Shown here one piece after another: positions 16,408 through 61,710 of a DNA stretch of 64,000 nt. A model generated the notes under the pieces. That model was not told the DNA's origin. It made no database searches and saw only the letters and a program-made list of their open reading frames with translations. The stretch is from a virus, in the IMG/VR virus record IMGVR_UViG_3300037104_000592, positions 1 through 64,000 of that record. One strand, 5' to 3'. How positions within the stretch are numbered: the stretch's first letter is position 1; the number at the start of each line of letters is the position of its first letter. The translations under genes and the position numbers were made by a program.

Positions 16408-17442
16408 ATGAAAACTTCAAAAAGAGAATATATTAAGAGCTGGTTTTTAAAAAAATATGAAAATAATAAATTAAAACCAAATACTTTTAGAATAATAAAA
16501 GAAAGCTTTCGAAATATATATGATGATATTATATCAGAAACTACATATCTAAATAAAAATTCAAGAATTTCAGAAAGATTGTTTCATATTTTTAATAATA
16601 TTTTTGAAGTTAAAAGATGTTTTTGTGAAAAAAATTTGGGTTATTTAGATATAAACAGAGGGTATGAAAGATGTTGTAAAAAGTGCAGACGTAAGGGGAA
16701 AATCAAACCAAAACTGTTGATTAATAAAAATAATATTTTATGTGATTATGGGTGTGGAAAATTAGCTAATTATATTTTATCAAACAATAAGAATTGTTGT
16801 AAACCAACTTTTGGAAAATGTGAAGCTATAGAACGAAAAATTCCAAGATCTAAAGTCAAGCATAAATATACATATAGTAAATGGATAAATAAATATCCAA
16901 TTTTGAAAGAAAATGAAGAACTTAGAAGTATAAATGAAATGTTAGAAGTTCAATGTAGAGAATGTAAGAACTGGTTTAGTCCAACTGCGGATCAATTATA
17001 TTTTAGAATTAAAGCGCTAGAAGATAAGAAAACTATCTATAAAAATAGAAATGTAAATTCTTATTTATTTTGTTCAAATGAATGCAAAGAAAAATCTTTA
17101 GAATATAGAAGAAGCAATACTATAGAAACTTCTAAAAAATATGAAAGTTATAGAAATATTGTTAATATAAAAACTATAAAAACTATAAGAAAACATAGAG
17201 ATAAAATTCTTAATATTGAGAATTGGAAAAAAGGAAATGCGATAGATCATAAATTTTCAGTTAGAGCTGGATTTGATAATAATATATCTACTGATATTAT
17301 TTCTCACTGGAAAAACCTTGAAGTTATGACATTTTCTATAAATGCAAAAAAACATAAAAAATGCTCAATAACTATTGATAAGTTGATTGAAGAGATTAAA
17401 AAAGATGATAAAAATTTTATATTTGAAGGAAAAACTAAATGA
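16408..17442 (+). CDS. HNH-type homing endonuclease with zinc fingers
   Basis: Inserted exactly between beta' (ends 16407) and beta (overlap of 4 bp). The 344-residue protein has several cysteine clusters: CFCEKN, CCKKCRRKG, the CDYGCGKLANYIL...CC module (about 111-131) also found in other endonucleases here, CRECKNWFSP and CSNEC. The C-terminus carries AIDHKFSVRAGFDNN, NLEVMTF, then NAKKHKKCSIT, an HNH-like DH...N...N..K arrangement. It is clearly paralogous to the protein at 24732 (ALDHKFSVIDGFKNN). Likely a free-standing homing enzyme exploiting the conserved polymerase genes; it is not needed for polymerase function. RBS is weak because it starts directly after the preceding stop. Confidence 0.78.
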   Translation: MKTSKREYIKSWFLKKYENNKLKPNTFRIIKESFRNIYDDIISETTYLNKNSRISERLFHIFNNIFEVKRCFCEKNLGYLDINRGYERCCKKCRRKGKIKPKLLINKNNILCDYGCGKLANYILSNNKNCCKPTFGKCEAIERKIPRSKVKHKYTYSKWINKYPILKENEELRSINEMLEVQCRECKNWFSPTADQLYFRIKALEDKKTIYKNRNVNSYLFCSNECKEKSLEYRRSNTIETSKKYESYRNIVNIKTIKTIRKHRDKILNIENWKKGNAIDHKFSVRAGFDNNISTDIISHWKNLEVMTFSINAKKHKKCSITIDKLIEEIKKDDKNFIFEGKTK

Positions 17443-44953: not shown

Positions 44954-45304
44954 ATAAAAACTAAAAGCGATTTTATAACCAATAGTAGTTCTACAAGTTT
45001 TATCCTTTCAAAAAGCAAAGATAAAGAAGTTGGAACTATTAAAATTAATTTTGAGGTAGATTTTAGAGACTTTAGATCTAAAATTTTTAAAACTGAAGAA
45101 GAAATAATAGAATATTTTGGGAATGATCATCCTGAAATAAATGAAATGTTAGAAGAAATTAAATATGGAAGAGAAATTGTAGTAATGAATTGTTATTCAG
45201 ATAGTGATAATCCAATAGAGGTTGCTCTTTGTTTTGATGGAATAGATAATTTTAATTTTGAAGGTGATGATATAAAAGTAATTTGTGGCGAAGGTGGATA
45301 TTAA
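44954..45304 (+). CDS. DFITNSSSTSF-motif protein, copy 2, apparent AUA start
   Basis: An open frame of 116 codons fills the gap between two genes and encodes KTKSDFITNSSSTSFIL at its N-terminus, the same block as copies 1 and 3. There is no ATG, GTG or TTG in frame between an upstream stop (44924) and the motif. ATA at 44954 lies about 6 bp after AGGTG and would make the N-terminus align exactly with MKFKRDF and MKIKQDF, so an AUA start is the simplest reading; ATA at 44951 or an ATT at 44930 are alternatives. Rest of protein acidic (about 40-116), unrecognised. Overlaps the next ATG by 1 bp (TAATG). Confidence 0.6.
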   Translation: MKTKSDFITNSSSTSFILSKSKDKEVGTIKINFEVDFRDFRSKIFKTEEEIIEYFGNDHPEINEMLEEIKYGREIVVMNCYSDSDNPIEVALCFDGIDNFNFEGDDIKVICGEGGY

Positions 45305-45900
45305 TGAAAATTAAACAAGATTTTATAACTAATAGCAGTTCAACAAGCTTTACTTTAAGAGTATCTATAACATCTGAAATAGAATTATTAGATAAATTTG
45401 AAAAATTTGATGTGAAAAAATTAAAATTAAAAAACTTTAAATTTGAAAATTTAAAAGAATATAGTAATTCTGTATTTTTTGATCTAGCACTTAAAGAAAA
45501 AGAATATGATGATGAAGATGAAGTAGGAATGTTAAAATATATATCAGGTTGTCTTGAAGTAGGTAATACCTGTCACCCAGATACTGATGAATTAATTGAA
45601 TTAATATATGTAAATATACTTTTAAGATATTTTTGCTGTTGTTATAGTCCAAATACAGAAGAGGATTTAATTACCATTTTTAAAAAAATAATCAAATCAA
45701 TTGGTGGGAAAGTTAGATATCCATTTGGAATATTATTTACTCAAACACCAGATGCTGAGGGTGATGGGTATGGTGGAGATCCTCAAGGGTTATATACTAG
45801 TTATAAAGAACTATTTTTAGGAGAAGCTAAAGTAGGAAGAATTATTTTTATAAACGAAAGAGAAAGTCCAATAATAGAAACATCTAAAATAGGTGGGTAA
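45304..45900 (+). CDS. DFITNSSSTSF-motif protein, copy 3
   Basis: The ATG at 45304 (TAATG overlap with copy 2) gives MKIKQDFITNSSSTSFTL, favoured over an upstream TTG that would add seven residues before the motif. The remaining 180 residues differ from the other copies: an acidic helical part, a CCCYSPNTEEDL segment and a Gly/Tyr-rich PDAEGDGYGGDPQGLY loop. The tandem position of copies 2 and 3 implies they arose or were recruited together. Function unknown. Confidence 0.7.
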   Translation: MKIKQDFITNSSSTSFTLRVSITSEIELLDKFEKFDVKKLKLKNFKFENLKEYSNSVFFDLALKEKEYDDEDEVGMLKYISGCLEVGNTCHPDTDELIELIYVNILLRYFCCCYSPNTEEDLITIFKKIIKSIGGKVRYPFGILFTQTPDAEGDGYGGDPQGLYTSYKELFLGEAKVGRIIFINERESPIIETSKIGG

Positions 45901-45904
45901 ATAA

Positions 45905-46243
45905 ATGGGATATGTAAGAAGATCAGAAAGAATTAAACATTTGAAACAGTATAAAGATATTAGATTAATTTTTAAGAATTTATTTGATACTCCAAATTTT
46001 ACAGATAATATTGTATATGGCGCAAGCTTTAAATGGTATTTTAATTCATTTTTAAGAAACAAATGGGGAAATGAAAAAAAAATAAAAGATAATGTTAAAA
46101 ATTTTCTAGAAAATAATTTGCGAGGTATAGGGTTTATTTTTGAAGTTAAATTATTACCTCATCCTTGGGCATCAAGATCAGGAATGTCTCCTAGTTTTAG
46201 AATTTTGACGAGGTTATATAATGGACCAAATTCAAATAGTTAG
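45905..46243 (+). CDS. Unknown basic protein, 112 aa
   Basis: Starts 4 bp after the preceding stop. It is rich in Lys, Arg, Phe and Asn, with a helical N-terminus (GYVRRSERIKHLKQYKDIRL) and a Phe/Trp-containing core; it may bind nucleic acid, but no motif is recognised. Overlaps the radical SAM gene by 23 bp. Confidence 0.55.
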   Translation: MGYVRRSERIKHLKQYKDIRLIFKNLFDTPNFTDNIVYGASFKWYFNSFLRNKWGNEKKIKDNVKNFLENNLRGIGFIFEVKLLPHPWASRSGMSPSFRILTRLYNGPNSNS

Positions 46244-47246
46244 TTGGCTTCTTACACGAAGATGTAATCTTAGATGTTCATATTGTAGAATATCTAGAGA
46301 TTATAAAGCACCTCCAGAATATAATTCAATGAAATATTTTCATCAATTAGAAATGAAAACGGAAGATATTTTAGAAACATTAAGAAGATTAAAGCTTCAT
46401 AATCCTAATGTTTTCCATATCTTTTACGGAGGAGAACCAACCCTTAGAACAGACTTATCAGAAATAATAGGATATTGTCATAAGGAATATATTAATTATA
46501 CCATCATTTCAAATATGACTGATAGACCCAAAGAAGTAATTGATAACTTAATTAAAGAACACGGATTCCTTCAAGGATTAACAGCGAGTATAGACCCTAT
46601 TATCATGGAAGAATATTCAAATGAGGATAGATGGAGAAAAACTTGGGGAGGATATAGCTTAAGAAAATATAGAGGAAAAGTAAAGGATTTAGTTGCTGAG
46701 ATAACTGTAAGTAATGATAATCTAAAGAATTTATATTCATTAGTTAGAAAATTAACAGATGATGGAATAAATTCTGATATTACTTTTGTTGATATAGCTA
46801 AATCTCCATATTATGATTTCTCTAATGTTACAGATGATGATTTATTAGTTTATAAATCAGCCGAATTAAGAGATATTATAAATAGAATAATTGGTGAAAA
46901 ATTAGATGTTCATATGAGAGATATTCTTTTACCTGCTATTTATGATATTCTTCCTTCTGAATTAGATTGTAAGATTGAAGATGATGTTCATAATATAACA
47001 ATTGATGCAGATGGAAGTATTCGATTATGTTTAAGAATTTGCGGAATTATAACTCCTGGATCTTTTAGGACTTCAAACTTTTTAGATGAAAATGGAAAAA
47101 TTCATGAAAGTTTAAAAGATGTATTAGGTCAAGATAAAAAAAGACTATGTCAAAAATGTAATTGGACCTGCCAGATTATGAGTTCTTTATTATCAAAAAA
47201 TGATGGAAATATTGAAAGTCTTCTTCATTCTGAAAGGAGATTATAA
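46221..47246 (+). CDS. Radical SAM protein
   Basis: A 341-residue protein with a canonical cluster CNLRCSYC at about residues 15-22 (WLLTRRCNLRCSYCRIS), a GGEPTLR glycine-rich motif and TIISNMT, then a C-terminal CKIEDDVHNITIDADGSIRLCLRICG, followed by LCQKCNWTC, which could hold an additional SPASM-like iron-sulfur cluster. This is the architecture of peptide/protein-modifying enzymes such as anSMEs or PqqE-like proteins. QueE is unlikely because QueE has a longer cluster loop. Substrate unknown; no precursor peptide recognised. Confidence 0.83.
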   Translation: MDQIQIVSWLLTRRCNLRCSYCRISRDYKAPPEYNSMKYFHQLEMKTEDILETLRRLKLHNPNVFHIFYGGEPTLRTDLSEIIGYCHKEYINYTIISNMTDRPKEVIDNLIKEHGFLQGLTASIDPIIMEEYSNEDRWRKTWGGYSLRKYRGKVKDLVAEITVSNDNLKNLYSLVRKLTDDGINSDITFVDIAKSPYYDFSNVTDDDLLVYKSAELRDIINRIIGEKLDVHMRDILLPAIYDILPSELDCKIEDDVHNITIDADGSIRLCLRICGIITPGSFRTSNFLDENGKIHESLKDVLGQDKKRLCQKCNWTCQIMSSLLSKNDGNIESLLHSERRL

Positions 47247-47993: not shown

Positions 47994-48368
47994 ATGACAA
48001 TGTTAGAAGAAATTCTAGAAAAAACAAAAACTTTACCCACTGATGATCAATTAAAACAAATTTGTGATCAAATACAAAAAGAAGAAGAAGAAAAATTTAG
48101 AGATTATTTAGGAGAGATGCCAAAAGGACCCAATATGTTTCTAGCAATTTGGGTTCCTGGAATTACAGGAAAAGAATTATGTTATGTATGTTTAGAAAGA
48201 GAATTTCCTGGTAAATATTTAGTAACTCTTTGGTCTAAATTATCCGAAAAAAGTATAATAAAAAAGAAATCATTAATAAGAACAAAAGTTTGGGAAGTTA
48301 AAGAAAGCGCTCCAAAAAAGATTTTAGAAGAATATGCTAAAATACTTAAGTTCATGAGAGGAAAATAA
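47994..48368 (+). CDS. Unknown protein, 124 aa, coupled to E2-like gene
   Basis: Ends exactly at the first base of the E2-like gene (TAATG), so translation is probably coupled. Charged helix at the N-terminus (residues 1-40) followed by MFLAIWVPGITGKELCYVCLE and a basic strand-rich end. Two cysteines (CYVC). It may be a cofactor or substrate of the downstream conjugation genes; nothing in the sequence proves this. Confidence 0.58.
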   Translation: MTMLEEILEKTKTLPTDDQLKQICDQIQKEEEEKFRDYLGEMPKGPNMFLAIWVPGITGKELCYVCLEREFPGKYLVTLWSKLSEKSIIKKKSLIRTKVWEVKESAPKKILEEYAKILKFMRGK

Positions 48369-50992
48369 TGGCCGAGCAAATATCACCTATATTTATTGAT
48401 GAAAATACAATTAAAGAAATATTTATAAATAGAGATTATACAAGACTCATAAGATCTTCTTATGATTCTAAAGCTAGAGATGTAAAATTGGATGAAACTA
48501 AACCAAAACTTGTAACATCTAAGATGAGAACAATAGATTTTTTTAATAAATTAAATAGTACAGATAGTAAACTAACAATTCTTCCTAGAAATTGTAGATT
48601 TACTAATAAAATAACTGATAGAACAATATACGTAATTGAAGATCCTCCTATGTTAAGAACAGTTAAATTTAATATAGGATTAGAATCTGAAATTGAAAAT
48701 TTAAGGAATAATGGTTTACTTACAAAGTTTGGATATGAAAATTTTCTAAATGATAATCCAAGTCCACCTTATAAAATACAACTTTCATTCCCGTATGTTA
48801 TTTATATTATAACTTTTGGGCAACATAATGAATTTTCAAATATGAAGTTATTTTATAGATTGCATCCTTTAACTGGAATAAAAGATTATTTACTCACAAG
48901 TAATTTATTGAATGTAGATTCTAACGGTTCTGTATGTTTAGGTCCACAAAATTCAAAAGATGTTACAGAAGTAAGTGATAAAGTAGATAATATTATAAAT
49001 TCTTTTTGGGGAAATGAGTTTAATAATGATATTACACATTCATATTTATCATATTCTAATCAAAGAGAAATTTCTACAATTCTAGCGTGGAAATATTATT
49101 CGAAAGTTGATCCAATGTTTATATTTGATGTGGAGTGGATAAAAAATACATATAATTTAGACTCATTTTTAAATTTTAAAAATTCTGGTGATGATATAAG
49201 AAGTTGTGAAAATATAATGTATAAACTTGAAGAGTATATTTTATATGATAAAGAAGATGAAGGACAAAAAGTTGTTGATAGAAGATATACTTATACCAGT
49301 CTTCCATTATTTGAAGATGAACAAAAGGGTTCTGACTATCTTGTAATTGGAGATGAAATTATATTTGAAGGGAAAAAATATTTTATATATGAAATAGTTC
49401 ATGAATCAGATGGAAAAATTATTGTTTCATTGGAAGACGAGAATGGAAAGTTAATTTATAAAAAATATAATACAGATTTTAGAGACAAAATAAGAAAAGA
49501 AACTTTGAAAAATAAAGAGCTTACAGAAATTAAAATTGATGGTCTTACTGTAAAAAAAGGAACCGTTTTAGAAGCATTTGATGGTTATAAAAAGAGATTA
49601 AAACATGTACAAAAAATAAGAAAGACCAGAGATGGAAAAATAGAAATACAATGTGAAAAAAGTTTCTACATGATTGAAGATGGGAGTTTAGCTGGAGTAA
49701 AAGTTTTTGATATTAATAATTTAACTATTTCTAATGGTTTAAAAATTGTTAATGGAAATAAGTACATGATTTTTAATAATATAACTAATCCTATATTTGA
49801 TATTCAAACTGGAATTTTTACAGATTTAAAAGTAACTAACGACACTGTCTACTATAATTTTAAATATGTCAGACCTGCTGATAAAAAAGAATCTACAATT
49901 AATTATAGTGGAGATACTCAAACAACTGAAGTTTTTGATTATGATGAAAAACTTTTAAATAATTCCATGTTTCCTTTCTTTAGACTTGGAAAAATGATCA
50001 TATCAAATATTGATAAAGATTATAAATTTCATATAATTAAAGGAAAAGGTATTGGGGTTACATCTTCTTCGGGTAATGTAATTGATAGATATGATTTTGG
50101 GAGATATTTAAATTCTGATAAAGATATAAAGGAGAAAATTTTAAAAGATAATAAATTAAGAATTCCATCATTTGATTTGGATATAGAATTTGATATTGGT
50201 GATAGAGTAGTTATAGCTGATTATTCTAAATCTTTAAAATATATTACTACAATAAGAACTATAACTGGATTTAAAATTGCAGGGGATAATCTTTTTGTAG
50301 ATACTGTAGATGAAAATAATATACCAGAAAGTACTCCTTATATAAATTTTAAAATTTATGATAAAAGTTATATTTATTCAAAATCTCCTAAAGTTAATAT
50401 TGGGTTAATTAGAAAAATAATAGATAATGATTTATTCAAAAGAGGAACTAAAGTAAGACCTAAGGTAAAAGGAATTTCATCATTTAAGAAAAAAGATGTT
50501 CATGAAATAGTTGGACTAATTACAGATACTGGGTCTAAACCTATTATTCTATGTTCAAATGGTCATACAATTTGGTGTGATGAAAAATCACTTGAAAATT
50601 TTGAACTTATAGATAAGAAATCTAAATTATATAATAAATCAAAATTAACAGAAATATTAGAAAATGAAAAAATATATTGTAAATTTCAATCTGGAGATTT
50701 AGCTGATATTAAAGATGTATATGATAGAACTTCATATGAAGATTCAATTCATCTTTGCGGTATAGGAGCAAATAATAGAATAATATTTAAAATTTTAAAT
50801 TCTTTAAATGTATATGGTTCATATAATAGATCTGGAAGAAGAATTATAAGTCAACAATATCAAACTATTCCTATGCCAAGATATTTACCAACAACTGAAT
50901 TAATAAGAGGGATTGGAGTTATTCCTAATTATCATGGTTGGTTTACTATTTCAAATAATTCGCTGTTTAAAATACAATTGGAGAAAATATAA
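48368..50992 (+). CDS. E2-like (PRTRC protein B-like) ubiquitin-conjugating fold with long barrel-rich extension
   Basis: An 874-residue protein. Residues about 85-230 resemble the E2-like PRTRC-B family: IYVIEDPPMLRTVKF, strands YVIYIITFGQ and KLFYRLHP (His166-Pro167), NLLNVDSNGSVCLGP with the candidate catalytic Cys190, and SFWGNEFNNDITHSYLSY, corresponding to the FF.S.FTH segment. Canonical E2s also have an HPN...G.xCL block. Beyond residue 300 are at least three SH3/Tudor-like stretches (DYLVIGDEIIFEGKKYFIYE, FDIGDRVVIADYS and FKRGTKVRPKVKG), not part of known PRTRC-B proteins, which probably bind the target or nucleic acid. First gene of a four-gene Ub-like cassette; TAATG coupling to the JAMM gene. 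Confidence 0.7.
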   Translation: MAEQISPIFIDENTIKEIFINRDYTRLIRSSYDSKARDVKLDETKPKLVTSKMRTIDFFNKLNSTDSKLTILPRNCRFTNKITDRTIYVIEDPPMLRTVKFNIGLESEIENLRNNGLLTKFGYENFLNDNPSPPYKIQLSFPYVIYIITFGQHNEFSNMKLFYRLHPLTGIKDYLLTSNLLNVDSNGSVCLGPQNSKDVTEVSDKVDNIINSFWGNEFNNDITHSYLSYSNQREISTILAWKYYSKVDPMFIFDVEWIKNTYNLDSFLNFKNSGDDIRSCENIMYKLEEYILYDKEDEGQKVVDRRYTYTSLPLFEDEQKGSDYLVIGDEIIFEGKKYFIYEIVHESDGKIIVSLEDENGKLIYKKYNTDFRDKIRKETLKNKELTEIKIDGLTVKKGTVLEAFDGYKKRLKHVQKIRKTRDGKIEIQCEKSFYMIEDGSLAGVKVFDINNLTISNGLKIVNGNKYMIFNNITNPIFDIQTGIFTDLKVTNDTVYYNFKYVRPADKKESTINYSGDTQTTEVFDYDEKLLNNSMFPFFRLGKMIISNIDKDYKFHIIKGKGIGVTSSSGNVIDRYDFGRYLNSDKDIKEKILKDNKLRIPSFDLDIEFDIGDRVVIADYSKSLKYITTIRTITGFKIAGDNLFVDTVDENNIPESTPYINFKIYDKSYIYSKSPKVNIGLIRKIIDNDLFKRGTKVRPKVKGISSFKKKDVHEIVGLITDTGSKPIILCSNGHTIWCDEKSLENFELIDKKSKLYNKSKLTEILENEKIYCKFQSGDLADIKDVYDRTSYEDSIHLCGIGANNRIIFKILNSLNVYGSYNRSGRRIISQQYQTIPMPRYLPTTELIRGIGVIPNYHGWFTISNNSLFKIQLEKI

Positions 50993-52020
50993 TGTTTAAA
51001 ATAGTTTGTTTAGATGGAACACAAAAAATACCAGAAGATGATATTTGTTATATTATAGCTAAGGGTGGGGTATATCTTAAGAAAAAAGTTGGAATGATTG
51101 AATCTTTAGCTCCAGTAAAGAATATTTCAATTTTAGAAGATGTTCAACCATATGCTAAAATGAATATTCCAAAAATCTCTGGTGAAGATTTTGGAAAAGT
51201 TATGAGTTTTTTCAAAAAAGTTTATGAAGAACATAAATCTGAAGCAATAGTTCTTTTATATTATAATCCAAAAAAAGCAACTTATAAATTTTATGTTCCA
51301 CATCAAAAAGTAAGTGGTGCTGGAGTTGATTATGTAAAAGGAGTTTCTATAGCAAATCATATTCAAGTAGGAACTATTCATAGTCATGCTAATTTTTCAG
51401 CATTTCATTCTGGAACAGATGATAGTGATGAAGAACATTTTGATGGAATTCATATAACAATTGGTGATAACACCGATGCTTTTCCATCTATCACTGCATC
51501 AATTGTTATAAATGGAACCAGATTTACAATAAATCCTATTGATTATGTAACAAAAATGGAAATTGTAGAATATACTAATTATTTTCCTCATATGTTCAGA
51601 CCATCTTTCACAGAAATAAATGGAGTCAGAGAATATAAATCTAATGTAAAAACTCAACTTGGATATCAGCTAATGATTTCAGACCAAGATAAAAAATTTA
51701 ATGAAGCATGGTTAAAAATGATTGAGAATGTTAGACCTACTATAACTAATATCCCATTTTATACACAAGAACACTATTTGGATTTATTTGATCCTAATAG
51801 AAAAGATAAGCAAGACAGATCTTATAGATACACATGGACTCCAGGTTCTACTAAAAAGAATAATCGTCCTGCTTATAATCCTTGTGAAAGTTGTGTTTTT
51901 AAAAAATATAAATCAGACGATGAAAGAAAATCAATAACACAAGAGGACATACAACAAAGTTTCTCTGATATTTGGGATGATTATAATGTGTATGATGATC
52001 CTTGGGGAAATTTAATATGA
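50992..52020 (+). CDS. JAMM/JAB metallopeptidase (deubiquitinase-like, PRTRC protein A-like)
   Basis: The JAMM motif is complete: Glu84 (SEAIVLLYY), then H130-x-H132-x7-S140-x2-D143 in GTIHSHANFSAFHSGTDDSD. The strand KFYVPHQKVSGAGVDYV before it resembles PRTRC-A/JAB proteins. This zinc peptidase family cleaves isopeptide or C-terminal extensions of ubiquitin-like proteins. A C-terminal region of about 140 residues contains CESCVFKKYK (about 300), a possible extra metal site. It lies between the E2-like and E1-like genes with 1-bp and 4-bp overlaps. Likely substrate: the beta-grasp protein at 52731, whose tail continues three residues beyond a GG. Confidence 0.88.
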   Translation: MFKIVCLDGTQKIPEDDICYIIAKGGVYLKKKVGMIESLAPVKNISILEDVQPYAKMNIPKISGEDFGKVMSFFKKVYEEHKSEAIVLLYYNPKKATYKFYVPHQKVSGAGVDYVKGVSIANHIQVGTIHSHANFSAFHSGTDDSDEEHFDGIHITIGDNTDAFPSITASIVINGTRFTINPIDYVTKMEIVEYTNYFPHMFRPSFTEINGVREYKSNVKTQLGYQLMISDQDKKFNEAWLKMIENVRPTITNIPFYTQEHYLDLFDPNRKDKQDRSYRYTWTPGSTKKNNRPAYNPCESCVFKKYKSDDERKSITQEDIQQSFSDIWDDYNVYDDPWGNLI

Positions 52021-52721
52021 GATTTAATGATATTTCTATAGTGGGTTTGGGTGGAATAGGCTCAATTTTAAGTAATACTATTTCAAGATTTATAAGTAAC
52101 GATGCTAGAGAAAATGATCCAAGACAAATTATAAATTTAATTGATGGAGATTATTATGAAGAAAAAAACTTAGTTAGACAAGAATTTTTAAGATTTGGAA
52201 ATAAAGCAGAATCTAAATTAAATGAATTAAGACCAAAATTTAATAATATTGAATTTAAAGATTATCCATATTTTATAGATGATATAACTATTTCTAGAAT
52301 AATTAAAGATAAAGATTTAGTATTTTTAGCAGTTGATAATCATAAAACAAGAAAATTAGTAAGTGATTATGCAAAAAAACTAAATGATATAATTATAATT
52401 TCAGGAGGAAATGAGCTAGAAGATGGTAATGTTCAATTGTATATTAGAAAAGATGGAGAAGATGTTACTCCATCTTTAACTGATTATCATCCAGAAATCA
52501 GAAACCCAATTGATAAATTACCAAATGAAATGAGCTGCGAAGAGTTACAAAACTCTGAACCACAACTATATTTTACAAATTTAGGAGTGGCAACTTTTAT
52601 GGCTTTTGCATTTTACAATGTCCTAAAAGGCTCAAATAATTTTTCAGAAGTATATTTTGATATGAACACAATGAAAGCTGATTCAAAAACAAGAAACTTA
52701 AAAAAAGAAAAAGGAGAGTAA
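52017..52721 (+). CDS. ThiF/E1-like adenylyltransferase, first module
   Basis: I chose ATG 52017, which overlaps the JAMM stop (ATGA). The 234-residue protein has the E1 Rossmann loop GLGGIG (residues 10-15), IDGDYYEEKNLVRQ (the D...E..NL.RQ block with the arginine and glutamine that contact ATP) and LAVDNHKTR (103-112). Cys174 in NEMSCEELQ is at the position of the ThiF/MoeB catalytic cysteine region. No rhodanese domain and no CxxC zinc pairs are present. It should adenylate the C-terminal glycine of the Ubl encoded next and may pass it to the E2-like protein. It resembles the ThiF of PRTRC cassettes. Confidence 0.88.
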   Translation: MRFNDISIVGLGGIGSILSNTISRFISNDARENDPRQIINLIDGDYYEEKNLVRQEFLRFGNKAESKLNELRPKFNNIEFKDYPYFIDDITISRIIKDKDLVFLAVDNHKTRKLVSDYAKKLNDIIIISGGNELEDGNVQLYIRKDGEDVTPSLTDYHPEIRNPIDKLPNEMSCEELQNSEPQLYFTNLGVATFMAFAFYNVLKGSNNFSEVYFDMNTMKADSKTRNLKKEKGE

Positions 52722-52730
52722 GGATTTATT

Positions 52731-53204
52731 ATGGCTAAAAAAGTATATTCGGCAGAGGAACTTTATAACAAAACAGTATCAGAACTTCGTGAAATGTGTG
52801 TTAAGTTTGGGATTACGGGTATGAGTAAAAGGAGAAAAGATGAGATTGTAGATGCTCTTTGTGATTATTATGAAGATACAGCACCTGAACCCCAAGTTAA
52901 AACACCAGTTTCTTCTTCATCTATCGTTTCTATGAATGCTCAACTTTCGAGTTATAGAAACCCCGATTCAAAAAATGATGACGATAAATACATCACCAAT
53001 ATTTTTGTGTCTTGCGGCGCAGCTTCTGGAAACTTCCCAGTTGTTGGAAAGAAAGTTGGAGCAGTTGCTGAATTCCTAAGAGAAGTTCTTAATATCGACC
53101 GTTTAAGTGTTGGAGTTGTGAATGGTGAAGAAGTTGAAGATAGTTATCTTCTTGCATCTGGAGATTCTCTTGAATTTCTAAAAGCAGGTGGTCGTAAAGG
53201 TTAA
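52731..53204 (+). CDS. SAP domain fused to ubiquitin-like/ThiS beta-grasp domain
   Basis: Residues about 11-47 (LYNKTVSELREMCVKFGITG, then KRRKDEIVDALCDYY) form a SAP-type nucleic-acid-binding helix pair. A Ser/Pro/Asp-rich linker (50-85) leads to a ThiS/MoaD-like beta-grasp domain (about 88-157): NIFVSCGAASG, a helix AVAEFLREVLN, and VNGEEVEDSYLLASGDSLEFLKAGG, the classic ending of sulfur-carrier/Ubl proteins, followed by RKG. If the JAMM peptidase removes RKG, a GG terminus would be exposed; alternatively the final Gly is itself activated, since PRTRC-C proteins also end in G-x-K-G. Codon use here is less AT-biased than that of neighbours, suggesting high expression. Confidence 0.8.
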   Translation: MAKKVYSAEELYNKTVSELREMCVKFGITGMSKRRKDEIVDALCDYYEDTAPEPQVKTPVSSSSIVSMNAQLSSYRNPDSKNDDDKYITNIFVSCGAASGNFPVVGKKVGAVAEFLREVLNIDRLSVGVVNGEEVEDSYLLASGDSLEFLKAGGRKG

Positions 53205-53768: not shown

Positions 53769-53783
53769 ATTTTTAGAAAAATT

Positions 53784-53940
53784 GGGGTGGATAATCATAC
53801 TGAATAAGTGGTTTTGAAACCTGGTACTAAGAAAGAGTGCGAACTCTGGGGCAGGAACCCAGATAGAAGCTTTAGATGGCTCGATAGCTGACTGATAGAT
53901 ATTGCACCCAAAGTGCCTTATCCAGTATTATTCCACCCCA
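53784..53940 (+). ncRNA. Predicted structured RNA, about 157 nt
   Basis: The ends of this gene-free interval pair to close a long stem: GGGGTGGA (53784-53791) with TCCACCCC (53932-53939), TAAT with ATTA, and ACTG with CAGT, with bulged CAT and T. Inside are clear hairpins: GGTT-TTGA-AACC (53810-53822), AGAGT-GCGA-ACTCT with a GNRA loop (53834-53847), CTGGG...CCCAG (53846-53862, sharing one base with the previous stem), AGC...GCT around 53868-53889 and GCAC-CCAAA-GTGC (53904-53916). No T-loop GTTCRANNC, so it is not a tRNA. The closed multi-branch form recalls Y-RNA-like or packaging RNAs, but I cannot assign a family. The strand is inferred from neighbouring genes. Confidence 0.7.
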
Positions 53941-53957
53941 ATTTTAGGAGATTAAAA

Positions 53958-54256: not shown

Positions 54257-55132
54257 GTGTATAAAGATATAGCGATTATAGGTTTAGGAAGTATAGGAGG
54301 TTTTTTATCGAGCAATATCATAAACATAGACACAATAAAATCTTTGGTTTTAGTTGATTATGATAGAGTAGAACTGGAAAATTTGAAAAATTCAATTTAT
54401 AAAAAATCAGATGTTGGGAAATTTAAAGTTGAATGTGTATCTTCCGTTATAAAATTGTTCAATAGTGAAATAAATATTACAGCAATAAAAGATAGATATA
54501 TAGAGGGAAAAACAAAAATTCCAAAATGCGATTTAGTTATTGATTGTAGAGATTTTGTTTATGATAGAGGTTCAGAAATAAATATGAGATTATATATCTC
54601 TTCTAGACATTTAATAATTGATTGTAGAAAAGATATAAAATATCAATTACACTATGAAGGAAAATATATAGATACATTAACAAAATCTGATATTTATTCT
54701 GCTACAGCTAATTTGTCAAGATTGATATTTAATGAAGAATTAAATGATATAATTAAAAACAATTTAGTTCATACAATAGATATGGATGAATGCTTAAAAT
54801 CAAGTGAAGAAACTTTAAATAACTATAATAATAAAATGGAAGTTGTTATGGATTATCATAAAAAGAATGATTGTTTCATAAATTTTCTTGAAAATGCAGA
54901 AAATATAATAAATTTCAATAAAAAAAGTGAAGTGAAAATTTGTCTAAACGATAAAAGATTTCCATTATCTACTAAAATAATACCAAAAAATTATATTCAA
55001 AATGTAAATGACTTAAGTAAAAATTTTTTATCAATAATACCAGCTAAAAATCATAGTAGTTATATAGTTAAATCAATTATAGAAAAAAATATTTGTTATG
55101 TAATTTTAATACCAGAAACAGGGGCTGCTTAA
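54257..55132 (+). CDS. ThiF/E1-like protein, second module, divergent
   Basis: GTG start after GTGGAGGAATA. The 291-residue protein begins IAIIGLGSIGGFLSSN (Rossmann glycine loop), then VLVDYDRVELENLKNSIY, the E1-family D...D.xE..NL block but with N-S where ThiF and E1 enzymes have R-Q, so nucleotide contacts may differ. VIDCRDFVYDR replaces the aVDn...R motif. The C-terminal 130 residues differ from ThiF and end in a short beta-rich region. It is followed immediately by a minimal E2-like gene. It is either a divergent activating enzyme for an unidentified Ubl or a scaffold that has lost adenylation. Confidence 0.75.
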   Translation: MYKDIAIIGLGSIGGFLSSNIINIDTIKSLVLVDYDRVELENLKNSIYKKSDVGKFKVECVSSVIKLFNSEINITAIKDRYIEGKTKIPKCDLVIDCRDFVYDRGSEINMRLYISSRHLIIDCRKDIKYQLHYEGKYIDTLTKSDIYSATANLSRLIFNEELNDIIKNNLVHTIDMDECLKSSEETLNNYNNKMEVVMDYHKKNDCFINFLENAENIINFNKKSEVKICLNDKRFPLSTKIIPKNYIQNVNDLSKNFLSIIPAKNHSSYIVKSIIEKNICYVILIPETGAA

Positions 55133-55134
55133 AA

Positions 55135-55476
55135 ATGAGCATAAAAACTATTACTATTGAGAAAAAAATAACACCAAGAATTGCTATTTATAAACGAGAT
55201 GCCTTTGATATTTTAGAGGTTGATCCAGAATTCATGATAAATAAATATGAGATAACTTTAAAAGAATCAAAAGTAGTTTCTTTAAAATTATTTGCTTTAC
55301 ATCCAAATTGTAATCCAGATACTGGAGAATTTTGTTTAGGTCCTGACATAATTGAAAATCAAGCAAATGAATATCTTTTAGAAAAAGTTATTCCTTATAC
55401 ACTATCAGTATATAATTTAGATAGTTGTTATTTCAGGCCAAAAAATGGAAAAGTAAAATATGGAATAATGAAATGA
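55135..55476 (+). CDS. Minimal E2-like protein, 113 aa
   Basis: The ATG at 55135 is 2 bp after the E1-like stop. Residues about 40-75 read ITLKESKVVSLKLFALHPNC, then NPDTGEFCLGPDI. This HPN...G.xCLG block is the hallmark of the E2/UBC active site, with a cysteine 11 residues after the histidine (10 in typical eukaryotic E2s). Flanking strands and a C-terminal helix (IIENQANEYLLEKVIPYTLSVY) fit a trimmed UBC fold. At 113 residues it is shorter than canonical E2s (about 150). It resembles the N-terminal block of the protein at 48368, so it is probably a second conjugating or adaptor subunit paired with 54257. Confidence 0.68.
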   Translation: MSIKTITIEKKITPRIAIYKRDAFDILEVDPEFMINKYEITLKESKVVSLKLFALHPNCNPDTGEFCLGPDIIENQANEYLLEKVIPYTLSVYNLDSCYFRPKNGKVKYGIMK

Positions 55477-55926: not shown

Positions 55927-58623
55927 ATGCCAAATATATTAAACATAGATAAGTTTTGTGAAAACTTAAAAGGAATTTCTTCTTTAAAAGCTATTGATAA
56001 AAGAAAATTCCATCCAAATGGATTATTCTCAGAGCAGATATTTGGTCCTTTAAAAAATTATACATGTCAATGTGGAATATATCATGGAGTATCCAATGCA
56101 GGTGGAACTTGCGAAATATGTGGAGTTGATATTGTTCATAGTATTGAGAGAAGAAGAAGATTTGGAAAAATTGTTCTACCTTTGAAAGTTGTTAATCCAA
56201 TTTTTTATGATTTGGTTATAAAATTGGGTGGAAATATATTAAAAAAGAATATAGATGAGTTAATGAAAAATGAAAAAAGTTATTTATATAAAGATGAAAA
56301 TGATTATATTGTAGAAACTAAGTTACCCCATCCTACTAATACTCAAATATGGGATAGATCTGAAGCAATTTTTGAATTAGTAAATGGACTTGCTACAGAG
56401 TTGGGAAATAATGAAAGTGGAATGGGAATTAAAGAATGGGAATTAATAAAAAATAATATTGATTGTTTATTTATTAAAAATGTTATAGTGTTACCACCTG
56501 ATTTAAGACCTGCTGCAAAAGGAATGGATAAGAACGATCAACGAATGGATAAGATAAATAGATTTTATGTTCAAATTCTTACAAAAAAAGAAAGTATGAG
56601 AAATACTCCTATAAATATAGAAACTGATAAAAGCGTATATTACAATTTTTTCAAGCAATTACAGAGAGATGTTAATGAATTATATGAACATATTATTTCA
56701 AAAATATCCAAGAAAGAAGGTTTAATAAGAGGAAATATTTTAGGGAAGAGAATAGATTTCTCAGGTAGAGCTGTTATTGTTCCAGAACCTTCTTTGAAAT
56801 TAGATGAATGTAGTCTTCCATATTTAATGGTTTTAGAATTATTTAAAATTCAATTATCTAAAAAACTTATAGATTTAAAACAGTTTAAATTATTAAATGA
56901 AGCAATTGATTTTGTTGATAGGTGTATAGAATTATCAGATCCTATTTTATTTAATATTTGTCAAGACATAGTTAAAAATGAAGTTTGTTTACTTAATAGA
57001 CAACCAACTTTACATAGATTAGGAATGATTGGATTTAAGATAAAAACTTCTTTAGATAAAGTTATAAAGATACACCCCCTAGTTTGTCCAGGATTTAATT
57101 CGGATTTTGATGGAGATCAAATGGCAGTATATATTCCGATTTCTGATAGGACAAAAGCAGAAGTTAGAGAAAAATTTATGTCAACTAAAAATTTATCTAA
57201 TCCTTCAAATGGAAGTTTAATTACTATTCCAAGTCAGGATATGGTTTTAGGAATTTATATGTTGACTACATCATCATTTGGAGAAGTTGAATATAAAGGT
57301 GAAAAAATAACAATTGGATCCAAAATATTCAATGAATGTTTACCAAGTGATTATCCATTAATAAATGGTTCAATAAATAATAAGATCTTAAAAGAAACAT
57401 TAAATGATATTAAAAATAAATATCCAGATGAAATAGTAACTGAAGTATTAGATAAAATAAAAGAAGTTGGTTTTAGATTTTCAACAATATATGGAACCTC
57501 AATGTCTTTGAAGCATATTTCAATTGATGGAATTGATAAAATTAAAAATGATATTTATTCATTGGATAATATTCAAGATCAATTATCTGCAATCTCTAGT
57601 AAAAAAACTGAAGATATAATGAGGAAAAACTTTAAATATTCTTATCTTATAGATTCAGGTGCAAGAGGAAAATGGGATCAGGTAAGACAAATAATTTTAA
57701 CAAGAGGATATATTTCTAATTTTCAAGGAGATATTCTCCCAACCCCAATAAAGCATAATTTAATAGAAGGTTTAGATCAACAAGAGTTTTTTAATTCAAC
57801 ATACGGTTGTAGAAAAGGATTATTAGATGTTGCATTAAATACAGGTGATTCTGGATATTTATCTAGAAAATTAATTTTCACTTGTGTTAACTTAATAATT
57901 GGGGAAGAAGATGATTGTGGAACAACAGATTATCTTGATATATTAGTTACTAGTGAAAAGAAAGCAAAAATGTTAATTGGAAGATATTATTTAAATGATG
58001 GAAATTTATCTGAAATAACAGTTGAAAATCATAAAGGATTTGTTGGAAAATTAATTCAACTTAGAAGTCCTATTTTCTGTAAAAATGAAGAACTATGTCA
58101 TAAATGTTATGGAAACTTATATAAAAATTTACATAGTAAGTTTGTAGGAATTATAGCTGCTCAAGCATGTGGAGAAGCTGGAGTTCAGCTAATTTTGAGA
58201 ACATTCCATACAAGTGGTGTAGCAAAGATTTCGGAAGATCAAACAGATATGAGACAGTCAGATATCGTAAGTGATTTATCTTCTGTATCAAAAGTTCTTC
58301 ATAATAAAGATAAAAAGGAATATAAAGAATTAGTTTCTAATTTATTTGACTTATATATTATAAATAGAGATATTCACCATATTCATTTTGAATGTATAAT
58401 TTCTCAAATGATGTGGAAAGGTTTTAGAAAATGGAGACTTCTACCAAATAGAGATAAAATTTCTTCAGACTATTATTCAATTCAAACAGTTCCTGAAAAA
58501 GAAAGTTGGATTGTAGGATTAGCTTTCTCAAATCCAAAAAACCATATTTTAAAAGGAATTGTTCAAGATGGAAATTATAAAGGAATTTTTGATAAAATAA
58601 TGCTAGGAGAAATACCTAGATAA
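55927..58623 (+). CDS. RNA polymerase beta' subunit, second set
   Basis: An 898-residue single-chain beta'. Unlike the first beta' it keeps an N-terminal zinc site, CQCG (47-50) and CEICG (62-66). The catalytic loop is NSDFDGDQM at 391-399: all three aspartates are present, but Ala of NADFDGDQM is Ser. ILGKRIDFSGRAVIVPEP and LNRQPTLHRLGM precede it, as in RpoC. The C-terminus has CKNEELCHKCYGNLY and GIIAAQACGEAGVQLILRTFHTSG, corresponding to the trigger-loop side. About 65% of bacterial beta' length. It differs enough from the first set that they are ancient paralogues or separate acquisitions. Confidence 0.95.
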   Translation: MPNILNIDKFCENLKGISSLKAIDKRKFHPNGLFSEQIFGPLKNYTCQCGIYHGVSNAGGTCEICGVDIVHSIERRRRFGKIVLPLKVVNPIFYDLVIKLGGNILKKNIDELMKNEKSYLYKDENDYIVETKLPHPTNTQIWDRSEAIFELVNGLATELGNNESGMGIKEWELIKNNIDCLFIKNVIVLPPDLRPAAKGMDKNDQRMDKINRFYVQILTKKESMRNTPINIETDKSVYYNFFKQLQRDVNELYEHIISKISKKEGLIRGNILGKRIDFSGRAVIVPEPSLKLDECSLPYLMVLELFKIQLSKKLIDLKQFKLLNEAIDFVDRCIELSDPILFNICQDIVKNEVCLLNRQPTLHRLGMIGFKIKTSLDKVIKIHPLVCPGFNSDFDGDQMAVYIPISDRTKAEVREKFMSTKNLSNPSNGSLITIPSQDMVLGIYMLTTSSFGEVEYKGEKITIGSKIFNECLPSDYPLINGSINNKILKETLNDIKNKYPDEIVTEVLDKIKEVGFRFSTIYGTSMSLKHISIDGIDKIKNDIYSLDNIQDQLSAISSKKTEDIMRKNFKYSYLIDSGARGKWDQVRQIILTRGYISNFQGDILPTPIKHNLIEGLDQQEFFNSTYGCRKGLLDVALNTGDSGYLSRKLIFTCVNLIIGEEDDCGTTDYLDILVTSEKKAKMLIGRYYLNDGNLSEITVENHKGFVGKLIQLRSPIFCKNEELCHKCYGNLYKNLHSKFVGIIAAQACGEAGVQLILRTFHTSGVAKISEDQTDMRQSDIVSDLSSVSKVLHNKDKKEYKELVSNLFDLYIINRDIHHIHFECIISQMMWKGFRKWRLLPNRDKISSDYYSIQTVPEKESWIVGLAFSNPKNHILKGIVQDGNYKGIFDKIMLGEIPR

Positions 58624-58653
58624 AAAATTTTAACACCTCAGGAGGTGAAATTA

Positions 58654-61600
58654 GTGGATATAATAAATCCAAACTATAAAATAAATGAAGAAAACAATAT
58701 ATTTTCAATAAGAGAAAAAGAATATAACTTAATAAAAGATAATGTAAGAGAAATTTTAAAAGCAGCAGAAGAAGTTGGTTTTTTAGTTAATGAACTTGGA
58801 ATAACGGAATCTAAATTCTCATCTGGAGAATTACAGAAAACATTAAAGAAAAATTTAGTTATAAAATTAAGACGAGGATCTTCTGACATAGACTTATCTA
58901 TGGCTATTCCAAAATTAATTGATAAAAATTATGTTATAATTGGAGGAAGGAAAAAAGTTCCTTTATTTCAATTATTTGATATTCCTGTAGTTACAAGAGG
59001 AAAAACTATAAAAATCAGAACCAATGTAGCAAGTATGATGATAGTAGATGAAAAAGAATTTCCATTTATTCATCTATCAATTTTTAATAAAAAAGTTCCA
59101 TTGTCCTTAGTCATATTTGCTTACTATGGTTTAGAAGAAACAAAAAATAAATTTAGTTTAGATAAAATAGAAATTCCTGAAATAAAAACTTTACATGATA
59201 AATTAATGACAGATTTAAAAGATTTTTATGAAGGATCAGAAGGGTTTACAAAAGAAGAATTTATCAAAGAAGTTGGTAAATTCTTCTCAACAAATGATGC
59301 AAAAAATAAAGGTGAAGATTTAATTTATGCTCTAGATCTTATTTTAAAGACCGATATAATGTCAGCTAAATTTTTCAAAACTGGAAACATTTTAGATGAA
59401 ATTGTTGAGGTTATTAAATTAGGTGGTTATGATGATACTGATTTAAGAAATAAAAGAGTAAGGTGTTTTGAATATGTAATTTTAGCTAAAGTATCTAAAG
59501 CAATATTTGATCTATGTATGTCAAATAGATCAACCACAAGACAAGCTAAATTTAATGTAAATTCCAGTCAAATTTTATCAGATTGTAATGTTTCAGATAT
59601 TGTTCAATTTGATTTTTCAATAAATCCAATTGAACAATTAACAAAATTAACAAGAACAAGTTTGGTTGGTCCTGGTGGGTTTGACAGAGAAAATGTTCCA
59701 GAATATCTAAGAGATATTAATCCATCAATGTTTGGAAGAATTTGTCCTGTTGATACTCCTGATAGAGATAACTGTGGAATATTACAAAGTTTATTACCAA
59801 ATACACCATTAGATGAAAATTTAAAATTTACAGATGAATCATTAGAAAAATCACCTATTTCTATTCCAGTTTCTTTAGTTCCATTTTTAGAACATGATGA
59901 TCAAACTAGATTACAAATGGCATCATCACAAATGAGACAGTCTATTATGTTATCAGAGTTTGAAGTTCCTATGGTTCAATCGGGATGTGAAGGGTTATAT
60001 ACAGATCATAGTAGCTTTATAAAAAAGGCTAGAAAAAATGGAAAAGTATCTTATGTAGATCAGTTTAATATAATTATTGTTTATGATGATAATGATTATG
60101 ATATTTTTGATGTATCAAATAGAAGAATATATGTTGAAAATATGGATGTTATGAACATATATGTTTCTAAAGGAGATAAAGTTAAAAAAGGAACGATTAT
60201 TGCTGAAAGTAATTATTGTAAAGATGGAAAAATAAATTTTGGAAGAAATTTATTAACAGCTGTTATGCCATATTATGGATATAATTATGAGGATGCAATT
60301 GTTATTTCTGATAGATTAGTAAAAGAAAATATTTTTACATCTATTCATTATATTGATTTATCATTTGTATTACCAGCAGATAAAATTTTACTTAGTTTAG
60401 AAAAAGATAAATATAAACCCCTTCCAACTCCAAAACCATATATAGATTTGGAAGAAGGAATTACAGAAGAAGAAAAAAGAAAAAGAAAAAGAGAATTAGT
60501 TTTAAAGGGTCAACATTATGCTATAATTAAACAAATTCCATCTACTACTTTGGATTACAATTCTATTTTCGAGGAAGAGATACCTTTAACTGCTAAAAGA
60601 GATATTTTAGTAACTGAAGTAAATATTTATCCTAATAAATGGAATGACTCAATTCCAAAATTTAATGAATGGATAGATAAAAAATCTAAAGAACAAATAG
60701 ATCAAGAGAATAAATTTAAGAGAATTATTTATGAAAATCTACCAAAAAGAAATGCTGATCAATATATAAGAGATCATAATCTAGATAGATTTTCTCATAT
60801 TGGAAAGTTTAAAATTAAAGGTGAAGAAATAAAAGGAACTTTAATTGAGATGTTTGGTTTTTATGTTAGACCAATTACTATTGGAGATAAGATTGGAAAC
60901 AGACATGGAAATAAAGGTGTAATTTCAAAAATAGTTCCACATAATCTTATGCCTAAATTAGAAGATGGAAGAAATGTTGATATATGTATAAATCCTTTAG
61001 GTGTTCCTTCGAGAATGAATGTTGGTCAAATATTTGAGTTACATTCTGCAATGTCTTTATATGATTTAAAAAAGACTATGTTAAAAATGATAAAAGAAGG
61101 AAAATCCAAAGACGAATTGAAAACATATATTTTAAATTATATTAAAATCATTGATAATACAGAAAATAATTGGTATTATAAACAGTTTGAAAAAAATATA
61201 AAAACTATAAATAAAAAGTTTATAGAAGATCTTACTATTCTTGCTCCACCATTTGAATCATCAACTAGAAAAATGATATTAGATGCTTGTGAATATACAA
61301 ATACCAAAACTGAATTTAAAGTATACGAACCATATGAAAAAATTGATATTCATGATATAGCTTGTGGGTTTATATATTTCTTTAGAATGGTTCACATAGC
61401 TGAAAATAGATTAGCAGCTAGAGGGATTGGTTCATATGGAAGAAGAACAATGCAACCAGGTGGTGGTCGTAAACACAAAGGAGGACAACGTTGTGGAGAG
61501 ATGGAAATCGCAGCAATCATTGCTCATGGTGGACTTGAAAATCTATATGAAACTTTAACAACCAAGTCAGATTGTATAGATCTTAAAAATAAACATATTA

Positions 61601-61710
61601 AGCAAGAAATAGGATCAGATTTCTTTAGAGAAAAAGAAGGAGATATTATAAAACCTGAAGCAGTTCAGCTTTTAGAGAATTATCTAACTGTTTTGGGTAT
61701 AGAAAAATAA
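58654..61710 (+). CDS. RNA polymerase beta subunit, second set
   Basis: I use GTG 58654, 7 bp after GGAGGT; the in-frame GTG at 58645 overlaps that site. The 1018-residue beta chain shows CPVDTPDRDNCGILQSL (fork region, with the usual TPEGPN replaced by TPDRDN), AVMPYYGYNYEDAIVISDR, GDKIGNRHGNKGVIS, INPLGVPSRMNVGQIFELH and RRTMQPGGGRKHKGGQRCGEME. All catalytic basic residues appear present. It is 25% shorter than the first beta, mainly at the N-terminus. Together with 55927 it forms the second polymerase; one of the two may be packaged in the virion, as in phiKZ-like phages, but which one cannot be told from sequence. Confidence 0.95.
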   Translation: MDIINPNYKINEENNIFSIREKEYNLIKDNVREILKAAEEVGFLVNELGITESKFSSGELQKTLKKNLVIKLRRGSSDIDLSMAIPKLIDKNYVIIGGRKKVPLFQLFDIPVVTRGKTIKIRTNVASMMIVDEKEFPFIHLSIFNKKVPLSLVIFAYYGLEETKNKFSLDKIEIPEIKTLHDKLMTDLKDFYEGSEGFTKEEFIKEVGKFFSTNDAKNKGEDLIYALDLILKTDIMSAKFFKTGNILDEIVEVIKLGGYDDTDLRNKRVRCFEYVILAKVSKAIFDLCMSNRSTTRQAKFNVNSSQILSDCNVSDIVQFDFSINPIEQLTKLTRTSLVGPGGFDRENVPEYLRDINPSMFGRICPVDTPDRDNCGILQSLLPNTPLDENLKFTDESLEKSPISIPVSLVPFLEHDDQTRLQMASSQMRQSIMLSEFEVPMVQSGCEGLYTDHSSFIKKARKNGKVSYVDQFNIIIVYDDNDYDIFDVSNRRIYVENMDVMNIYVSKGDKVKKGTIIAESNYCKDGKINFGRNLLTAVMPYYGYNYEDAIVISDRLVKENIFTSIHYIDLSFVLPADKILLSLEKDKYKPLPTPKPYIDLEEGITEEEKRKRKRELVLKGQHYAIIKQIPSTTLDYNSIFEEEIPLTAKRDILVTEVNIYPNKWNDSIPKFNEWIDKKSKEQIDQENKFKRIIYENLPKRNADQYIRDHNLDRFSHIGKFKIKGEEIKGTLIEMFGFYVRPITIGDKIGNRHGNKGVISKIVPHNLMPKLEDGRNVDICINPLGVPSRMNVGQIFELHSAMSLYDLKKTMLKMIKEGKSKDELKTYILNYIKIIDNTENNWYYKQFEKNIKTINKKFIEDLTILAPPFESSTRKMILDACEYTNTKTEFKVYEPYEKIDIHDIACGFIYFFRMVHIAENRLAARGIGSYGRRTMQPGGGRKHKGGQRCGEMEIAAIIAHGGLENLYETLTTKSDCIDLKNKHIKQEIGSDFFREKEGDIIKPEAVQLLENYLTVLGIEK

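Follow-up and report, generated by a model that had tools for sequence, protein, structure and literature searches.

Introduction

To our knowledge, the conjugation of ubiquitin-like proteins (Ubls) in bacteria has been encountered mainly in anti-phage defence, such as the cyclic-oligonucleotide-based anti-phage signalling system (CBASS) and Bil, and in the uncharacterised plasmid cassettes called PRTRC. Why, then, would a phage carry the genes for this chemistry itself, and what would it modify? We address these questions for IMG/VR virus record IMGVR_UViG_3300037104_000592, an incomplete record of 82,376 bp whose bases 1-64000 are the stretch analysed here (64,000 nucleotides; hereafter the window). 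An earlier, sequence-only reading had proposed that four adjacent genes encode an E2-like conjugating protein (E2a), a JAMM peptidase, a ThiF/E1-like activating enzyme (E1a) and a Ubl. We find that this cassette is real and widespread, and that it occupies an unexpected genetic place, directly upstream of phage RNA polymerase genes. The block is probably a phage-encoded cascade of ubiquitin-like conjugation and deconjugation, for which we infer both catalysis and the direction of transfer. This suggests that large phages of this group chemically tag proteins during infection. In the open-access literature, we found no direct report of Ubl conjugation by phages, or of PRTRC in phages.

Searches of viral contigs yielded 101 distinct contigs of up to 340 kb, many of them truncated by contig ends. 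Conservation of active sites was counted in alignments of 46-58 diverse homologues (46 for E2a, 56 for the Ubl, and 58 and 57 for E1b and E2b, a second pair introduced below), while the finer comparison of JAMM (Glu84) and E1a (Cys174) residues used an alignment of six relatives. Loci used for comparison are referred to by L-numbers, with L149 being OM634661.1.

Four co-directional genes with conserved active sites

All four genes were found where the sequence-only reading had placed them, co-directional on one strand at 48368-53204 and packed tightly end to start in the order E2a, JAMM, E1a, Ubl (Table 1). This order recurs in 74 of the 101 viral contigs, which excludes a chance association, and JAMM-E1a-Ubl recurs in 94.

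The complete H-x-H-x7-S-x2-D motif noted in the JAMM protein holds across its family, being present in 91 of 93 homologues, and Glu84, H130-S-H132, S140 and D143 are invariant across the six aligned relatives. Its best curated family is PRTRC_A (E-value 2.3e-8), and Prok-JAB of Pfam is also matched (4e-4). E1a, whose start is better placed at ATG 52017, matches ThiF (Pfam, 5.9e-18) and PRTRC_ThiF (5.6e-10). The cysteine proposed as catalytic, Cys174, is invariant in six relatives, and a cysteine stands at the equivalent place in nearly all 91 homologues. The closest non-viral relatives of E1a belong to NC10, with 47-48% identity.

The fourth protein had been described as a SAP-Ubl fusion. The fusion is borne out, with an N-terminus that matches Rho_N (6.7e-7) more strongly than SAP (0.038) among Pfam models. 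Its C-terminal half is a beta-grasp domain, TGS being matched in 34 of 56 homologues and ThiS in 29 of 56, and the terminal Lys156-Gly157 is kept in all 56. In 86 of 88 Ubl ORFs (open reading frames), KG is followed by 0-12 further residues. A minority of relatives of the window have residues beyond KG, and these vary (C, F, R, YK, IDVGL and others); KG-Cys ends 17 of the 89 Ubl ORFs listed. An invariant KG with variable extra residues is as expected if a protease generates the mature end. With its ThiS/TGS-type domain and a predicted exposed C-terminal glycine, the protein qualifies as a ubiquitin-like beta-grasp protein.

The case for E2a stood in part. Asn182, Cys190 and Trp214 are invariant (46/46), even though homologues are mostly only 17-44% identical to E2a of the window. 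Prok-E2_D of Pfam matches the window protein over a span that includes Cys190 (0.014), and was found in 35 of 46 relatives (best 1.2e-6). The His-Pro that had been read as part of the active site did not survive, as H166 is present in just 9 of 46 homologues. The conserved feature is instead Asn182-x7-Cys190 (LLNVDSNGSVCLG), an offset of eight residues. Classical E2s carry HPN-x7-C, with a comparable offset. On the Prok-E2_D profile and a catalytic-type cysteine with an upstream asparagine, E2a fits the E2/ubiquitin-conjugating (UBC) superfamily as a predicted member. The AlphaFold model, with a predicted local distance difference test score (pLDDT) of 83.8 overall and mostly >90 across the E2 region, shows an order of strands and helices consistent with UBC, although a whole-chain Foldseek search did not establish that fold.

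The extension of ~600 residues reported for this E2 is present in the window protein and absent from NC10 homologues. It is beta-rich and perhaps Tudor/KOW-like, since Foldseek gave low-score matches to Tudor, KOW and similar barrels, which are a hint only. A likeness to IFT-A was discarded, such global Foldseek matches being judged meaningless. Full-length E2a had zero matches in phage GenBank. Two or three E2a-like ORFs stand in tandem at the core-only or divergent loci L062, L065, L081 and L145 (also L046 and L133), as if separate E2s existed for separate targets.

A second E1/E2-like pair and the RNA polymerase genes

The four-gene cassette had been called self-sufficient. This overlooks a second E1/E2-like pair, E1b and E2b, further downstream. 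E1b matches ThiF (Pfam, 3.3e-17) and MoeB (1.5e-14), and its AlphaFold model (pLDDT 93.6) finds ThiF, UBA5, MccB, MoeB and Cap2 as best Foldseek matches, so that the ThiF/E1 fold is confirmed at the level of the predicted structure. Nucleotide-binding residues are kept (G9, G11, G14, D34 and K57 in 58/58; D96 in 56/58), while the Arg finger of NxxRQ is not, the position being mostly N. The last 66 residues form a beta-beta-alpha-beta-beta module, predicted with high confidence, that closes in a conserved tail (Gly289 in 52/58, Ala291 in 56/58; consensus ETGAA, ..TG(A/G)A). As modelled, the module resembles a Ubl or the ubiquitin-fold domain of E1 enzymes; searches of the E1b C-terminus against Pfam, PDB and Ubl profiles gave no match, leaving a Ubl identity without sequence support.

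In E2b, His56 and Cys67 are present in 57 of 57 homologues, and Pro57 and Asn58 each in 55. UQ_con was matched in two of the 57 (best 0.0063). Searched against PDB, the E2b profile gave three matches only, weak (0.087-1.3) and all to ubiquitin-conjugating enzymes, and both alignments shown fall on HPN..C. We do not claim a recent common origin of E2a and E2b: hhalign aligns their active sites, but with a probability of 2%.

Location beside a second polymerase, as originally described, is correct: genes for beta' and beta of a second multisubunit RNA polymerase (RNAP) follow E2b, besides a first set of RNA polymerase genes at 13375-21533 of the record. The full order through E1b-E2b-rpoC-rpoB is seen in 66 of the 101 contigs, with contig ends cutting many others. 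E1b is found in all 75 contigs that have rpoC in view, and rpoC comes after E1b in every one. A single locus, L197, has the order radical SAM-p112-small protein-E1b-E2b-rpoC-rpoB (SAM, S-adenosylmethionine) without the first block, and across its 92 kb the E1a profile matches once only, at E1b's own place. Conversely, seven records of 120-340 kb that have the first block gave no E1b match, an empty result that is weak evidence. The modules are thus separable, and the second pair is tied more tightly to the RNA polymerase operon than is the first cassette. The entire viral block, RNAP included, also occurs on contig L157, which binning assigned to a Thermoplasmatales archaeon but which is most likely viral and misbinned.

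Linkage to RNAP is also reflected in the proteins of the first cassette. The median length of E2a is 858 aa where RNAP adjoins versus 379 aa elsewhere. A Rho_N/SAP-like module is present on 76 of 76 RNAP-linked Ubl ORFs, two of which (L026, L050) match the N-terminal module only, versus one of 24 others, the lone case (L030) being near a contig end and possibly from the RNAP group. The Rho_N/SAP fusion and the long E2 extension are therefore limited to the RNAP-linked lineage.

E1b and E2b may form a second E1-E2 relay, in which E1b's own C terminus would serve as the tag or its C-terminal module would dock E2b. If it docks, the module would be a ubiquitin-fold-like domain rather than a fused tag, and the pair would activate the SAP-Ubl or another tag. 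We consider this a serious competitor, though we lean away from it. The module is confidently predicted, yet matches no Ubl family by sequence, and eukaryotic E1s possess a comparable C-terminal domain. However, the T-G-A/G-A end is among the most conserved residues of E1b, as expected of a reactive tail and not of a docking domain, and L197 has E1b and E2b although its 92 kb yielded no separate E1a and the part of it that was read showed no SAP-Ubl.

Table 1. Features of the Ubl locus and its neighbours, in window coordinates
Feature	Position	Strand	Basis
Radical SAM protein, conserved upstream neighbour	46221..47246	+	Radical_SAM 4.4e-15; upstream in 64/101 contigs
E2a: E2/UBC family D-like domain (~residues 66-270, Cys190) with ~600-residue beta-rich C-terminal extension	48368..50992	+	Prok-E2_D, conserved residues, AlphaFold
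JAMM/JAB metalloprotease, PRTRC A-like, putative Ubl-maturing/deconjugating enzyme	50992..52020	+	PRTRC_A, Prok-JAB, invariant catalytic residues
E1a: ThiF/E1-like Ubl-activating enzyme, candidate catalytic Cys174	52017..52721	+	ThiF, PRTRC_ThiF, conservation, tree
Ubl: N-terminal Rho_N/SAP-like module and beta-grasp ubiquitin-like domain ending ..KAGGRKG	52731..53204	+	Rho_N; TGS/ThiS in homologues; KG end
Conserved small protein between the modules, in a subset of relatives and L197	53250..53768	+	Pfam 0.13 only, weak Rv2632c-like match
E1b: second E1-like protein, C-terminal beta-beta-alpha-beta-beta module, conserved ..ETGAA end	54257..55132	+	ThiF, MoeB, AlphaFold, Foldseek, conserved tail
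E2b: small E2-like protein, HPN..C active-site motif	55135..55476	+	Residue conservation, UQ_con, weak PDB matches
RNA polymerase beta' of second multisubunit RNAP, conserved downstream neighbour	55927..58623	+	PHROG RNA polymerase families
RNA polymerase beta of second RNAP	58645..61710	+	PHROG RNA polymerase families

Relationship to PRTRC and other known systems

The PRTRC cassette of plasmids, to which the sequence-only reading had likened the phage genes, corresponds to type 6d in the operon classification of Iyer et al. 2006 (PMC1779556). Family matches, active sites and synteny sustain the likeness. Compared with the PRTRC models (NCBIfam TIGR03734-03742), however, the proteins fall short of family membership. 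PRTRC_A (TIGR03735) scores 33.9 bits with the JAMM protein against a cut-off of 101.8, which indicates homology only; PRTRC_ThiF (TIGR03736) reaches 39 bits with E1a against 144.75; and PRTRC_B (TIGR03737) gives a weak match of 10.9 bits, against 131.45, over the Cys region at 48890-49021. PRTRC_C (TIGR03738) has no match anywhere in the 82-kb record. The ParB-like, E and F components (TIGR03734, TIGR03741, TIGR03742) are missing as first reported, with no model match in the incomplete record of 82,376 bp. In an E1 tree, PRTRC E1s are monophyletic with E1a of the window outside them (support 100/99), and PRTRC groups with E1s of a Bacillus phage and plasmids, apart from the viral-plus-bacterial group of the window (100/99). 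Because of the scores below cut-off, the lack of PRTRC_C, ParB, E and F matches and the separate E1 clade, the cassette is, on sequence criteria, a PRTRC-like one of operon type 6d rather than PRTRC proper. Type 6d is defined by a gene neighbourhood in which Ubl, JAB, E1-like and E2-like proteins are encoded separately (PMC1779556); the extra alpha-helical protein of that operon type was not identified here.

Both systems share an E2_D-like B, a JAMM A, a ThiF and a Ubl C, the gene order B-A-ThiF, and a Ubl that ends in AGxKG with a variable tail (AAGAKG-AYAQI in protein C of a Cupriavidus metallidurans plasmid). In the window, by contrast, the Ubl lies downstream and bears Rho_N/SAP, the E2 has its ~600-aa extension, and the cassette is followed by the second E1/E2-like pair and RNAP genes.

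A cultured relative exists in Bacillus phage vB_BauM_KLEB27-3 (OM634661.1), which has a ThiF (gp194), a JAMM protein noted in the record as PRTRC_A domain-containing (gp195) and, read by eye, an E2_D-like protein annotated as hypothetical (gp196). Its gp199 (L149:9739-10446), also annotated as hypothetical, is polyubiquitin-like: it consists of four near-identical Ubl copies, each ending in KAGVKG, that match four Pfam Prok_Ub domains (5e-27). Plasmids pAD3 (L151:1033-1770) and pN497-ZHONG (L154:1616-1957) have four and two copies respectively, with KAGTKG ends, adjoining E2_D, JAMM and ThiF. The last copies of these tandem Ubls end in short tails (MPRIVVK, YKTIKLTKAA and F), comparable to the residues past KG in some relatives of the window. 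Such tandem precursors, the tails after KG and the tail of PRTRC C fit proteolytic maturation after KG. Like the window, these three loci, one on a phage and two on large plasmids, encode an E2_D-like protein, a JAMM protein, ThiF and a Ubl. They differ in their tandem poly-Ubl without SAP, a short E2 and an E1 that groups with PRTRC, and the stretches read there showed no E1b/E2b. A polyubiquitin-like gene in a cultured phage makes the idea of phage protein tagging testable now, including the question of what PRTRC-type systems modify.

At four PRTRC or PRTRC-like loci, a dnaN sliding clamp gene lies beside or near ThiF (L150:1679-2761, L153:6711-7835, L156:9521-10630 and L152:752-1912), which suggests the sliding clamp or replication as a target at those plasmid and gut-phage loci. 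For the cassette of the window this target was dropped, as dnaN was seen at none of the window-type loci.

Compact E2-JAMM-E1-Ubl cassettes also occur in metagenome-assembled genomes of NC10 (Methylomirabilota), Patescibacteria, KSB1 and Planctomycetota. In the E1 tree, E1a of the window groups with such bacterial cassettes. The components are shared at most of these loci, and the Ubl ends in AGEKG or SGTKG, but the E2 is ~225-290 aa without extension, the Ubl lacks SAP, and no RNAP neighbour was seen. Type II CBASS Cap2/Cap3, Bil and Bub follow the same prokaryotic E1, E2 and JAMM logic, and Cap2 is among the fold matches of E1b, but these systems arrange E1 and E2 differently and serve bacterial defence. 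Among PADLOC defence models, E1a (3.1e-4) and E1b (3.8e-11) match the E1 domain only of 'E1-E2' models, E2a, JAMM, Ubl and E2b have no match, and the locus is not assigned to CBASS, Bil or Bub. Tail assembly genes of lambda and T1 (TAPI/TAPK) likewise combine a phage-encoded Ubl with a JAB peptidase, but without E1 or E2 (PMC1779556).

Proposed function and alternatives

In the cascade that we propose, JAMM would trim the residues past Lys-Gly of the Ubl where they are present. E1a would adenylate the terminal Gly157 and then hold the Ubl as a thioester on Cys174, from which E2a would take it on Cys190 and attach it to target proteins through one of their amino groups. The JAMM protease could later remove the Ubl from those targets. 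Complete sets fixed in a large phage group, with a second pair and strict linkage to RNAP, would mean that phages use this chemistry themselves.

Several observations weigh against this proposal. Foldseek on the full E2a model gave no UBC match, the extension dominating the whole-chain search, and the E2a profile recovers no E2 from PDB sequences. Type-6d E2s are described with a conserved downstream His (PMC1779556), which E2a lacks, Asn219 apparently standing at that place in an alignment by eye. The Ubl ends in KG, not GG. Finally, relatives with no RNAP genes in the examined flanks also have the core cassette, so that RNAP need not be a universal target.

Since a nucleic-acid-binding tag, an armed E2, a second pair and RNAP linkage co-occur in one lineage, the modified protein, whether of phage or host, is most likely one associated with nucleic acid. 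The leading candidate would be the second RNA polymerase that the phage encodes, or the transcription complex of that enzyme. Transcription had already been put forward as a candidate, and synteny has strengthened it, yet as the actual target we regard it as possible but rather doubtful. A more specific version appears unlikely, namely that two separable Ubl relays (the Rho_N/SAP-Ubl with a Tudor/KOW-armed E2, and the TGAA-tailed E1b with E2b) jointly modify phage RNAP transcription complexes. If true, it would mean that a virus of prokaryotes encodes a ubiquitin-like system to control transcription.

Alternatively, the Ubl might be a sulfur carrier, charged by E1a to a thiocarboxylate for sulfur insertion, perhaps with the radical SAM protein, while JAMM trims its tail or releases the product. 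Sulfur carriers that work with a JAMM protein have precedents in the QbsD/QbsE and Mec+/CysO systems. E1a and the Ubl are related to ThiF and ThiS, the radical SAM gene is conserved upstream, and the KG-Cys ends recall JAMM-trimmed sulfur carriers. Against this stand the two linked E2-like proteins with their invariant Cys. In addition, none of the ORFs read was seen by eye to encode a rhodanese, ThiG or a cysteine-synthase-like protein, the annotated stretches of PRTRC plasmid homologues contain no radical SAM gene, and the poly-Ubl precursors of relatives fit a tag better. We thus hold a sulfur carrier to be quite improbable. Slightly less probable still is a counter-defence decoy, in which phage proteins with no cascade of their own disturb host Ubl defence (type II CBASS Cap2/Cap3, Bil), for example by E1b and E2b sequestering host parts or JAMM reversing host conjugates: E1b does match PADLOC E1 domains, and Cap2 by fold, and JAMM marginally matches BilC (0.94), but the block is a co-inherited set that includes a Ubl and keeps its active sites, E1a is weak against defence models, and the block has a constant position beside RNAP, not among variable genes. 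The presence of two E2-like proteins and a dedicated Ubl, together with the fixed position, makes both alternatives less likely than phage-encoded conjugation.

Other features of the locus

Between the two modules, a 161-nt intergenic stretch at 53783-53943 is unusually well folded (minimum free energy -53.2 kcal/mol, z -4.2); it matches nothing in Rfam and is not clearly conserved among relatives. Upstream, the radical SAM gene is adjoined by a family of short proteins starting MKIKxDFITNSSSTSF.. (45283-45900 in the window; also upstream in L003, L005 and L007). There are often several per genome, and they are possibly a substrate family for peptide modification. Elsewhere in the window, a topoisomerase/gyrase A-like gene at 33674-36196 contains an apparent large insertion that, by eye, has the look of an intein or homing endonuclease.

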